Positions 30,825-62,478 of a stretch of 64,000 nt of DNA are shown here, in pieces; the stretch's first letter is position 1, and each line of letters opens with the position of its first letter. Location: the NCBI RefSeq assembly GCF_006538365.1, contig NZ_BJKN01000001.1, positions 124,001 to 188,000 on the forward strand. Reading direction: 5' to 3'. The position numbers were made by a program, and so were the translations under genes. The notes under the pieces are model-generated. The model had not been told where the DNA came from and did not search any database. It worked only from the letters and a program-made list of their open reading frames with translations. This DNA comes from Moorella sp. E308F (GTDB taxonomy: Bacteria; Bacillota; DSM-521; Neomoorellales; Neomoorellaceae).

Positions 30825-31098
30825 TCATTAAATTTATATTCGGCAAAGGCAACTTAAATCCTGCTAAAAAATTTTATCTTTGCGCGAATAGCAGGTTCTG
30901 CTTTAATCCGGGTTTCCTTTCGCCAGGGGGACATTTTATCCTAATCTACCTCTGTTCCGGTTGTCTGGTTTTAGGCTGGTACCGTACCGGTGTTTTTAGA
31001 AGGCACGTTTTCCGCCAACCCCTGCTAATCTGGGTTTAGGGGACGCCAGGCCTTGGAGCGGTTCTGCCCGCTAAATACTTTTCGCACGACTTCCGGGG

Positions 31099-31152
31099 TT
31101 GACACTCTCAGGAAGCTGGCATAAACTTATAGTCAAAAGTATTTTTGATTAT
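31099..31152 (+). promoter_or_regulatory. Promoter and ArsR/CadC operator of the cad operon
   Basis: TTGACA at 31099-31104, a 17-base spacer and TAAACT at 31122-31127. Directly downstream, ATAGTCAAAA (31129-31138) and TTTTGATTAT (31143-31152) form a 10-4-10 inverted repeat with one mismatch, the layout of CadC/ArsR operators. The regulator encoded just downstream is the probable ligand. Confidence 0.8.
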
Positions 31153-31156
31153 TTGA

Positions 31157-31552
31157 ATGAGGAGCCGGCCGAAAGTGAAGTTACAGCCCATGGCAAGCCA
31201 ACTGGAACGAGATCCCCCCGTTTGTCAGGTCAATTGCGTCAACGAGGAGAAGGTGAAGCGGCTCAAGCCCCAGGTGGATCGTACAGAGGGCGTCGCTACT
31301 ATCTTCAAGGCCCTGGCCGATGATACCCGGGTGAAGATAATCTACGCCCTCAGCGAGGCCGAGCTTTGCGTCTGTGATGTAGCGGCACTAATCGGCAGCA
31401 GCAAGGCGACTGCTTCCTATCACTTGCGCTTGCTGTACCATATAGGGCTGACCAGGTATCGCAAAGCCGGCAAGCTAGTATACTACCGCCTGGCTGACCC
31501 GCATATCGGCAACCTGGTACGGGAGGTCCTGCAGCACCTGGCCAGGACATAG
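31157..31552 (+). CDS. cadC: CadC-type ArsR-family metal-responsive repressor
   Basis: Up to 131 residues. A winged helix is formed by IFKALADDTRVKIIYAL, DVAALIGSSKATASYHLRLL and RKAGKLVYYRLAD. Metal-binding cysteines match CadC: an N-terminal CQVNCVNEEKV pair and the ELCVCDVA CxC in helix alpha-3, giving a Cd/Pb/Zn sensor. GTG 31175 is an alternative start placed after AGGAG. It is expected to repress the promoter at 31099-31152 until metal binds. It lies 69 bases before the ATPase gene. Confidence 0.9.
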   Translation: MRSRPKVKLQPMASQLERDPPVCQVNCVNEEKVKRLKPQVDRTEGVATIFKALADDTRVKIIYALSEAELCVCDVAALIGSSKATASYHLRLLYHIGLTRYRKAGKLVYYRLADPHIGNLVREVLQHLART

Positions 31553-31621
31553 GGACGATAACCAGATTGTTATTATGACCCCCCCATCGCATAAGACCGT
31601 ACACATGAAGGGTGATGGCAA

Positions 31622-33757
31622 ATGGCACAGGCTGAAAGCCCGGGTAGGCCCGGCAAGACTGCAGACTTCCGAGTTGAAGGGATTACTTGACTGGATTGCG
31701 CCGCCAAGTTTGAAAAAAATGTCGCGGCGCTCCCTGGTGTAACCAGGGCCAGTTTAAACGCTACCACCGGTAAGCTAGTTGTTGAAGGCGCAGCCGATTT
31801 GGAAGCCATCCGGCGGGAAGGCAGGAAGGAAAACTACGCTATCTTCCCCGCCAGGCAAGACGAGGTAAAACCGGCCAGGCCCATGGTTAATTGGGAATTG
31901 TTGCGCACGGTGATCGCTGCCGGCGCCTTGCTGGCTGCCTATATCGTAGAACGGGCTGGTGGAGCAGCTACCTTATTCATCTCGCTATACTTAATAGCTA
32001 TAATAGCCGGCGGATGGGGTAACGCCCGCAAGGCCTGGTACTCCCTGCCGCGCCTGGACTTTAATATGAGCGTGCTGATGACCATAGCCGTTATCGGGGC
32101 CGTGGCCATTGGTGAATGGGAGGAAGGAACCGTTGTGGCCTTCCTGTATTCCGTGTCCGAGATGCTAGAGTCCTGGACTATGGAACGGGTGCGCCGGTCT
32201 ATCCGCGCGCTCATGGATATCGCCCCCAGGGTGGCCAGAATCCGCCGCCAGGCGGGGGAAGAAATAGAAGTCCCGGTCGAAGAGATCCAGGTGGGTGACG
32301 TGATGATCGTCCACCCTGGCGAGAAGATCGCCATGGACGGGCGTATCATCAAAGGCGAGTCGGCCGTCAACGAAGCCGCCATCACGGGTGAAGCCGTACC
32401 CGTGGAAAAAGGCCCCGGGTCCGAAGTTTATGCCGGTACTCTCAACACCCATGGTTCCCTGGAGGTCGAGGTCACCAAGCTGGTCCGGGATACCACCATC
32501 GCCAGGATCATTCACCTGGTGGAGGAGGCACAGGCCCGGCGGGCGCCATCCCAGGCCTTTGTAGAACGCTTCGCTGCCGTTTATACCCCCATTGTTCTGG
32601 CCCTGGCCGCCGGCATTGTCCTGGTACCGCCCCTGCTCCTGGGCTACCCGTGGAGTCCATGGATCTACCGGGGGCTGGCTCTGCTGGTAGTTGCTTGTCC
32701 CTGCGCCCTGGTGGTATCGACTCCGGTAGCCATTATCAGTGCCATTGGTAACGCCGCCCGCAACGGAGTCCTGATCAAGGGCGGGGTCTACCTGGAACAG
32801 GCCGGTGCCCTCACTGCTGTCGCTTTTGACAAGACCGGAACCCTGACAAAAGGCGAATCCACCATTACCGACATTATTCCCCTGGGACGTCTGACCGAGG
32901 AGGAACTGCTCCAGATTGCCGCCAGCCTCGAGGCACGTTCCGAGCACCCCCTGGCGCAAGCTGTTGTTAAGGCGGCAGAAGCCCGCGGGCTAGCAATAAA
33001 ACCTGCGGAGGATTTCAGCGCCCTTACCGGCCGCGGGGCACGAGGGGTCGTGAGCGGCCGGACCGTCTATATAGGTAACCTTCGCCTTTTTACTGAGCTG
33101 GGTATGGAGACCAAGGCGGTGGCCGGCCGGATCCGCCTGCTGCAAGAGGAAGGCAAGACAGCCATAGTCGTGGCCACGGCTGAAGATTTTCTGGGAATCA
33201 TCGCCGTGGCCGATGAGGTCCGGGAAACAAGTGCAACGACAATTGCCGCCTTAAAGCGAACCGGCATCCGCCGCACAGTCATGCTGACGGGGGATAACGA
33301 GGCGACAGCCCGCACCATTGCGAGCCGGGTCGGGGTGGATGAATTTCGCGCTGAACTGCTGCCCCAGGACAAGGTTAAAGCCGTTCAGGAACTGATGCAG
33401 CAATATGGCAAGGTGGCCATGGTAGGTGATGGTATTAATGATGCCCCGGCCCTGGCTACGGCTACGGTTGGCATCGCCATGGGCGGGGCAGGGACGGATA
33501 CAGCGTTGGAAACAGCGGACATTGCCCTCATGGCCGATGACCTGACCAGGTTACCCTTCACCATCCGCCTCAGCCGGGCGGCCCTCGGGGTGATCCGGCA
33601 GAACATCGGCTTTTCCCTGGCCATTAAGGCCATGGCTGTGGCCGCCGTGTTCCCCGGGTGGCTCACCCTCTGGCTCGCCATTCTGGCCGATATGGGAGCC
33701 TCATTGCTGGTAACCCTGAACGGCATGCGGCTCCTGCGGCTGCATCCGGAAAAATAG
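31622..33757 (+). CDS. cadA: Cd/Zn/Pb-transporting P1B ATPase with candidate selenocysteine (in-frame TGA, codon 23)
   Basis: From the ATG at 31622 (AGGGTGATG upstream) the frame runs 711 codons to 33757, broken only by TGA at 31688-31690. The N-terminal heavy-metal domain reads FRVEGIT-TGA-LDCAAKFEK, whereas CadA proteins have GxTCxxCAxKFEK, so the TGA stands exactly at the first metal-binding Cys. The rest is canonical: NATTGKLVVEG, VACPCALVVSTP (CPC, near 357), DKTGTLT (near 401), MLTGDNEATA and [11 protein letters not shown] (near 600). Either the TGA encodes selenocysteine, giving a UxxC metal site, or the domain is disrupted and translation restarts later (for example TTG 31799). A possible bacterial SECIS hairpin follows the TGA. 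It exports divalent soft metals under CadC control. Confidence 0.88.
31688..31730 (+). promoter_or_regulatory. Candidate bacterial SECIS element within cadA
   Basis: Seven bases after the TGA, GCGCCGC (31698-31704) pairs perfectly with GCGGCGC (31724-31730). Inside, GTTT (31708-31711) can pair with AAAT (31717-31720), leaving a GAAAA apical loop that begins with G about 21 bases after the TGA. This placement suits bacterial SECIS rules (loop starting with G about 16-37 bases from UGA, recalled knowledge). The 3' arm uses two consecutive GCG alanine codons, which complement the GCC-GCC codons of the 5' arm. Confidence 0.5.
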
Positions 33758-33767
33758 TTGCCAGAAA

Positions 33768-33804
33768 CGGGGAAGGGAAGGCCGGGCGCCTTCCCTTCCC
33801 CGTT
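33768..33804 (+). terminator. Terminator of the cad operon
   Basis: CGGGGAAGGGAAGG (33768-33781) and CCTTCCCTTCCCCG (33789-33802) form a perfect 14-bp stem with a 7-base loop, 10 bases after cadA. The U-run is short (TTCT). Confidence 0.85.
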
Positions 33805-33879
33805 CTAAAAAGGTACTCTGCCCCTCCCGGAAGGAAGGAGCGTTTTCAACCAGGATTTCCGTAACATATAAAACCACCT

Positions 33880-59904: not shown

Positions 59905-62478
59905 GTGTCTAACAGTGAAAAGATTGGCCCTGTCAAGGTAAGTTTCGCCGTCCATGGTATGACCTGTGCGGCCTGCGTGGCCAAAGTGGAAAAGGCTCTA
60001 AAAAATATGGCGGGTGTAGTGGACGCCCGTGTCAACCTGGTTGCCGGGAAGGCAACCGTGGAATATTTCCCGGACCAGGTCAGCGTGCCTCAGATGGCCA
60101 AGACCATCCAGGCCCTCGGCTATGAGGTACCGGAAGAGGAAGTCCTCCTGACAGTAAGGGGAATGAGTTGTGCCGCCTGTGTGGCCAAGGTGGAAAAAGC
60201 CGTTAAAGCCCTGCCCGGCGTAACTTCAGTAGTAGTGAACCTGCCAGCAGAATCGGCCAGAGTCCGGTTCTACCCCGGGGCCGTGGACAAGGGGCGCATT
60301 AAAAAGGAAATCAACGCCCTGGGGTATGAAGCTACGGAGAAGCTCACCGGCCAGGCCGCCCTGGACCAGGAGAAAGAGGCCCGGGAGAGGGAGATCCGGT
60401 TCCAGCGCCGCAATATGTGGATTGCCTGGCCCCTGGCAACCCTGGTGATGCTCGGTATGTTCCGCGATGTATGGATTTTCCCCTACTTTATACCAGAATG
60501 GCTGGGGAACGTGTATGTGCTGTGGGCTTTAACCACACCTGTCACTTTTATCCCCGGCTGGCAGTTTTTCGTTCACAGTTGGAACGGCCTTAAACGTGGA
60601 ACTACGGATATGAACCTCCTCTATGCGACGGGTATTGGTGCGGCCTATATCATCGCCACCATCAATACCCTCTGGCCTGAGGCCGGTTTCGGGGGGCGCG
60701 GAGCCACTTTCTTCGAGTCTGCCGCATTGCTTACCGCCTTCATCGTCCTGGGCCGTTACCTGGAAGCTATTACCCGCGGCCGTACTTCCGAGGCCATCCG
60801 CAAGCTCATGAGCCTGCAGGCCAAAACCGCCCGGGTTATCCGGGACGGCCGGGAAATGGAGATTGCTGCCGATGAAGTCGAGGTAGGAGATGTTGTCGTG
60901 GTCCGTCCCGGTGAAAGCATCCCGGTGGACGGAGAAGTCATCGAAGGTTATTCGGCCGTGGACGAATCCATGATTACCGGCGAAAGTATTCCGGTAGAAA
61001 AACGTCCTGGTTCCCAGGTCGTGGGGGCGACTATCAACAAGACCGGTTCCTTCAAGTTCCGGGCCACCCGGGTCGGGAGCGAAACGGCCCTGGCCCAGAT
61101 TATCAAGATGGTGGAGGAAGCCCAGGCTTCCAAAGCTCCCATTCAAAAACTGGCCGATTTTGTGGCCGGCCACTTTATCGCCGGTGTCCACGTGCTGGCC
61201 CTGATCGTGTTCCTGTTCTGGTTCTTTATTGGCTATAACGCCTTCTTCTTGCCCGATAGCCGCTTTATCCTCTCGCCCTATAGCCTGGCTGAAATCGGCG
61301 TCTTCGGTTTCGCCCTTCTGCTTTCGGTAACCACTCTGGTCATATCCTGCCCCTGTGCCTTAGGTCTTGCCACCCCCAGTGCGATTATGGCCGGTACAGG
61401 TAAGGGGGCTGAAAACGGCATCCTCTTTAAGGGAGCCGATGCTGTGGAGGCGTGCAGCAAGCTGAATGCCATTGTTTTTGATAAAACGGGGACCTTGACT
61501 AAAGGCGAGCCTTCGGTCACCGATGTGATCGCCGCCCCGGGTTTTGAGAAACGCGAGGTCCTGCGGCTGGCCGCCATGGCCGAAAAACCCTCCGAGCATC
61601 CCCTGGGCGAGGCCATTGTCCGCGGCGCCGGGGAGGAAGGCTTAGGATTAGAGGAAGTACAGGACTTTGAAGCCATTCCAGGCCATGGTGTCAGAGCCAC
61701 TTACCAGGGTCAGGAAATCCTTTTAGGCAACCGCCGTTTGATGCAGCAGCATAACATCAATGTGGGCGATCTGACCGCGCAGATGGAAAAACTTGAAGAG
61801 CAGGGCAAAACCGCTATGCTGATAGCCGTAAACGGTAAAGCCGCCGGTATTATTGCCGTGGCCGATACCCTGAAGGAAAACGCGAAAGTCGCTATTGAAC
61901 GGTTGCACAGGATGGGCATTAAGGTGGCCATGATTACCGGTGATAACCGACGTACGGCCCAGGCTATTGCCCGTGAGCTCGGTATCAAGACCGTCCTGGC
62001 CGAGGTCTTGCCCCGGGATAAAGCCGAGGAAGTAAAGAAACTCCAGGCCCAGGGTCTTAAAGTGGCCATGGTGGGTGACGGCATTAACGACGCTCCGGCC
62101 CTGGCCCAGGCTGACGTCGGGATTGCCATTGGCTCCGGAACCGATGTGGCCAAGGAAACAGGTGACATCATCCTCATCAAAGACGATATTCGCGATGTGG
62201 TGGGAGCCCTCGAAATCGGCCGCGCCACCATGCGCAAGATCAAGGAGAACCTGGTATGGGCTTTTATCTACAATATATCGGGTATTCCCATTGCAGCCGG
62301 CCTGCTGTACCCCTTTACCGGGCTGATTGTCAGCCCCGAACTGGCGGCGTTCTTCATGGCCATAAGTTCGGTTTCGGTTACACTAAATACACTCCTTTTA
62401 AAGCGCTTCCAGCCCTCCCTGCGGAAAGATGCCGCCAAAGCAGAACATCATAGGCAGCTGGCCCACCAAATGGGTTAA
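59905..62478 (+). CDS. copA: Copper-translocating P1B-type ATPase
   Basis: 857 residues from GTG 59905 (GGTGGTG upstream). Two N-terminal HMA domains carry normal CxxC sites, [14 protein letters not shown] (near 18) and [14 protein letters not shown] (near 86). The membrane CPC motif is [14 protein letters not shown] (near 480), followed by [10 protein letters not shown] (near 525), [10 protein letters not shown] (HP motif), [11 protein letters not shown] and [17 protein letters not shown] (near 723). The [10 protein letters not shown] motif and C-terminal MSSVSV-like helix ([17 protein letters not shown]) specify Cu(I). It exports Cu(I) under the CsoR-like operator. Confidence 0.96.

Follow-up and report, generated by a model that had tools for sequence, protein, structure and literature searches.

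The cadA gene of Moorella sp. E308F was found in the window (the whole 64,000-nucleotide stretch of DNA analyzed) behind a gene for a cadC-like repressor, and the two form a cadC-cadA operon. As the original prediction stated, translation of the cadA frame (ATG 31622 to TAG 33755-33757) gave a single stop, TGA 31688-31690 at codon 23, within the product MAQAESPGRPGKTADFRVEGIT-TGA-LDCAAKFEKNV... (flanking codons GIT-TGA-LDCAAKFEK). The features of the locus were as follows.

30886..33878, no strand: cadC-cadA cassette, ~3.0 kb, ends approximate; same site empty in two genomes of the genus
31099..31127, + strand: sigma-70-type promoter-like site upstream of cadC (TTGACA-17-TAAACT; consensus match, not above shuffled expectation)
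31157..31552, + strand: cadC-like ArsR/SmtB repressor (NF033788, 86.5 bits, over the cut-off; VCQVNC ... ELCVCD cysteines)
31622..33757, + strand: cadA, P1B-2-type Zn/Cd/Pb ATPase, 711 residues, with selenocysteine (Sec) predicted at residue 23 (translation, TIGR01525/TIGR01512, Pfam, ZntA match)
31667..31819, + strand: N-terminal heavy-metal-associated (HMA) domain with the predicted Sec, residues 16 to 66 (PF00403, 44.3 bits)
31688..31690, + strand: predicted Sec UGA codon at the first CxxC Cys position of the HMA domain (GIT-U-LDC; TGA/Cys in homologues)
31698..31730, + strand: putative bacterial SECIS hairpin (GCGCCGC/GCGGCGC stem plus apical GUUU/AAAU, loop GAAAA)
33766..33804, no strand: perfect 17-bp inverted repeat directly 3' of cadA, likely transcription terminator (from the sequence)

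CadA passed the curated cut-offs of TIGR01525 (631.2 bits; cut-off, 346.25) and TIGR01512 (544.2 bits; cut-off, 313.5), carried the Pfam domains HMA, E1-E2_ATPase, and Hydrolase, and scored below the ZntA equivalog cut-offs (NF033775, 555.9 versus 1240; NF008262, 643.9 versus 1005). Its translation, aligned with ZntA, contained the P1B-2 signature residues VVACPCALV, SLAIKAM, and LADMGASL; we take a CPC in a membrane helix, a Lys in the penultimate one, and a DxG in the last one to mark the P1B-2 (Zn/Cd/Pb) subtype, and from family membership we infer that the metal is Cd, Zn, or Pb. The nearest solved relatives were ZntA (4umv) and 7qbz. ZntA, also P1B-2, matched CadA over nearly its full length (E=2.5e-141) and shared the membrane-helix CPC, DKTGT, HP, GDGIND, and last-helix DxG, while 7qbz, a cadmium-translocating P1B-2 ATPase, matched only the part of CadA beyond the HMA domain, starting at query residue 92. 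The TGA had been said to replace the first Cys of the metal-binding CxxC, and the GMDCAAC of ZntA does align there; the first HMA ligand is Cys in ZntA, whereas in the window's CadA it would be Sec.

The cadC-like gene ends 69 bases upstream of cadA, and its VCQVNC ... ELCVCD cysteines follow the CadC pattern; regulator homologues bearing ELCVCD sit at most related cadA loci. An ArsR-type regulator directly upstream of cadA is likewise the arrangement of CadC/CadA cadmium resistance operons, from which the window differs in the Sec predicted for the first HMA Cys of its ATPase. A second P-type ATPase (window positions 60148 to 62415) is ~40% identical to CadA and retains both Cys of its HMA CxxC.

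In two genomes of the genus, the flanks of the cassette lie just 47 bases apart (G002, with a right flank 95% similar, the highest among genomes) and ~170 bases apart (G008), compared with ~3.0 kb in the window. These empty sites suggest that the cassette was probably acquired by the window's lineage, that is, gained laterally rather than lost elsewhere. No full-length cadA orthologue above ~40% identity was found in 10 other genomes of the genus, and a search of plasmids, which could have pointed to a recent donor, gave no relative at ≥60% identity. The UGA form also occurs in another genome of the family (G018, 74% identity), and the tree clusters G000, G018, and metagenome-assembled genome (MAG) L045.

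Codon 23 was TGA in 33 distinct homologous segments (including that of the window) and TGC/TGT in 28 others, with no other recurring stop, the pattern expected under the Sec reading put forward originally. UGA-form relatives were 44 to 74% identical to CadA and came from several Bacillota families and Actinomycetota. Scanning 398 genomes from the phylum returned 18 strong matches having an in-frame TGA, 17 of them with the TGA at codon 23. The remaining one (L077; G303:C1:276384-278483), a Cys-form cadA 74% identical to CadA, encodes Cys at that position; its only TGA replaces a Trp codon (position 347) and may be a sporadic nonsense mutation, a recent inactivation, or a sequence error. This case illustrates that sporadic in-frame stops do arise in the family, as they would if the cadA of the window were an ordinary gene broken by a nonsense mutation or slightly mis-sequenced, and a homologue 83% identical to CadA (L045) has TGT at codon 23. 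Against that explanation stand the recurrence of TGA at codon 23 across two phyla, in dozens of genomes sequenced independently, together with purifying selection after the TGA and a covarying hairpin (below); this recurrence effectively excludes nonsense mutation or sequencing error.

Purifying selection acts on the protein on either side of the UGA: across 276 Sec-Sec pairs among the close Sec forms, pN was 0.105 and pS was 0.705 over the 17 codons after it, and pN was 0.221 and pS was 0.729 over the 6 codons before it. These values bear on whether the UGA is a true terminator (a regulatory stop or leader), with an HMA-less ATPase made from an internal start. One such alternative start, TTG 31799, opens a frame of 652 codons, and UGA copies of cadA exist in a genome where selA, selB, and tRNA-Sec were not found (ALC3; below). 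Two Thermosediminibacteraceae relatives (L063, Thermovorax; L065, Fervidicola), which align from residue 92 on, apparently without an HMA domain, sit near UGA forms in the tree and make a truncated product conceivable. However, protein-level conservation between the UGA and the TTG is strong (pN/pS, ~0.15; 17 codons), and among close relatives UGA alternates only with Cys codons; we consider termination at this codon very unlikely.

The 7-bp stem (GCGCCGC/GCGGCGC) noted earlier as starting 7 nt past the TGA is present, as the base of the putative SECIS hairpin. The SECIS-like loop GAAAA begins 21 nt past the UGA, and the element fits the limits published for a bSECIS (a loop of 5 nt opening with G, a spacing of 21 nt, and an energy well below −7.5 kcal/mol), with a predicted energy of −18.8 to −30.5 kcal/mol, varying with segment and constraint; its loop is without the GG/GU common in bSECIS elements. 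The hairpin agrees with the bacterial SECIS model and covaries, but its energy alone in this one sequence was not decisive, since 189 of 2,000 synonymous recodings fold as well as the native hairpin. The case for the hairpin rests on family conservation and covariation.

Counted from the U of UGA, columns 13 to 24 pair with columns 30 to 41 around a GAAAA/GAGAA loop. In a set of 24 distinct, closely related Sec sequences, 86.0% of cells were paired (78.4% when shuffled; 0/500) and the covariation score was 0.266 (0.149 when shuffled; 0/500), in shuffles that ignore kinship, some base changes being inherited by whole clades. Two-sided compensatory changes in the Sec genes fall at synonymous third codon positions, and the covarying pairs were 15-39 (CG 10, GC 9, UA 1, UG 1), 18-36 (CG 14, GC 2, UA 1, UG 1), and 24-30 (CG 12, UA 8, UG 3). 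The 28 Cys homologues, on average more distant, gave no signal (53.6% paired versus 52.4% shuffled; 137/500), and in L045, a close relative with Cys, the hairpin is less stable (−17.1 versus −30.5 kcal/mol). In a distant UGA clade (L112 to L116; 44 to 46% identity), the hairpin after the UGA is in a different register, which suggests a SECIS shaped independently; L047 and L050 do not fit the main hairpin.

The genome encodes all four of selA, selB, selC, and selD, the genes whose presence the original prediction had asked about, and selD itself has an in-frame UGA; ARAGORN identified tRNA-SeC(tca). At the thresholds used, SelB and/or tRNA-Sec were detected in 18 of 21 UGA-form genomes. Neither was found in two UGA-form MAGs (G043 and G045), perhaps reflecting MAG incompleteness, and Lucifera, which has the Cys form, yielded no SelB, full-scoring SelA, or tRNA-Sec.

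The complete chromosome of Alicyclobacillus sp. ALC3, the third exception among the 21, carries two UGA cadA copies and a UGA selD (L061, L067, and L122; NZ_CP066784.1, about 4.32 to 4.40 Mb). selA, selB, and tRNA-Sec were not found in this genome, nor were selA, selB, or selC found within 80 kb around the cadA copies, the second of which is also frameshifted; the ALC3 UGA genes look like stranded, decaying selenoprotein genes. Where selA and selB are missing, as in ALC3, reading of the UGA as Trp or Cys by a near-cognate tRNA could yield a full-length protein. For the window's CadA we judge such a reading extremely unlikely, given that tRNA-Sec, SelA, SelB, and SelD are all encoded in the genome and that the hairpin signal is confined to UGA forms.

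The UGA recurring in dozens of distant relatives and the conserved hairpin together indicate that the UGA of cadA almost certainly encodes selenocysteine. On a tree built from residues after codon 23 only, the U/C label needed 10 changes, 9 of them forced by well-supported branches, which points to repeated exchange of Sec and Cys in the family, at least 9 times.

We therefore hold with high confidence that the locus encodes a CadA with a Sec-x-x-Cys HMA site, its UGA 31688 decoded as Sec by means of the hairpin, acting in CadC-controlled efflux. Insertion of Sec into CadA, as we infer it from the sequence, would proceed by SelB and tRNA-Sec reading UGA 31688 under direction of the hairpin at 31698 to 31730. 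CadC would repress the operon, with release on binding of a soft metal ion, a mechanism suggested by family, and the Sec/Cys pair of the HMA domain would then probably bind the ion and help to regulate the membrane transport site or supply it with the ion. Selenium in place of sulfur could let the site bind soft metals more tightly or faster, or make it sensitive to redox state.

In most characterized selenoproteins, Sec serves redox catalysis; in CadA, it would occupy a metal-ligand position of a transporter. More tentatively, and with rather less than even confidence, we propose that this Sec is a metal ligand and not a redox catalyst, that the UxxC tunes the pump to Hg/Cd/Pb or redox-gates it, and that the many Sec/Cys swaps perhaps followed selenium supply.

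A Sec-containing P-type ATPase had been thought undescribed, which proved incorrect: a cation-transporting ATPase with UxxC is a predicted selenoprotein in existing catalogues (PMC13188914, PMC9312934, PMC2398784). The GOS survey counted 1 Sec form with UxxC versus 882 Cys homologues in the same family (PMC2398784), and a review places the ATPase among predicted Sec transporters, mostly for metal/metalloid resistance, with roles needing further study (PMC13188914). The catalogued protein (ABB15669.1) has TIGR01525 and the UxxC in common with the window's CadA, to which it is likened by family and motif; the catalogues give this one UxxC ATPase example, without a function. Our literature search turned up no work on the function of a Sec P-type ATPase, and as far as we found the family has been catalogued but never studied. 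The breadth of the family, the SECIS covariation, the at least 9 Sec/Cys exchanges, and the apparently stranded ALC3 copies exceed what is in the papers found and may be reported elsewhere.

Were Sec confirmed as a metal ligand, the Sec/Cys swaps would be a natural test set for the contribution of selenium to metal binding, and, because Sec and Cys versions 83% identical exist, the gain from selenium would be directly measurable. For annotation, treating the UGA as a stop moves the cadA start downstream (e.g., to TTG 31799), and the HMA domain is lost.
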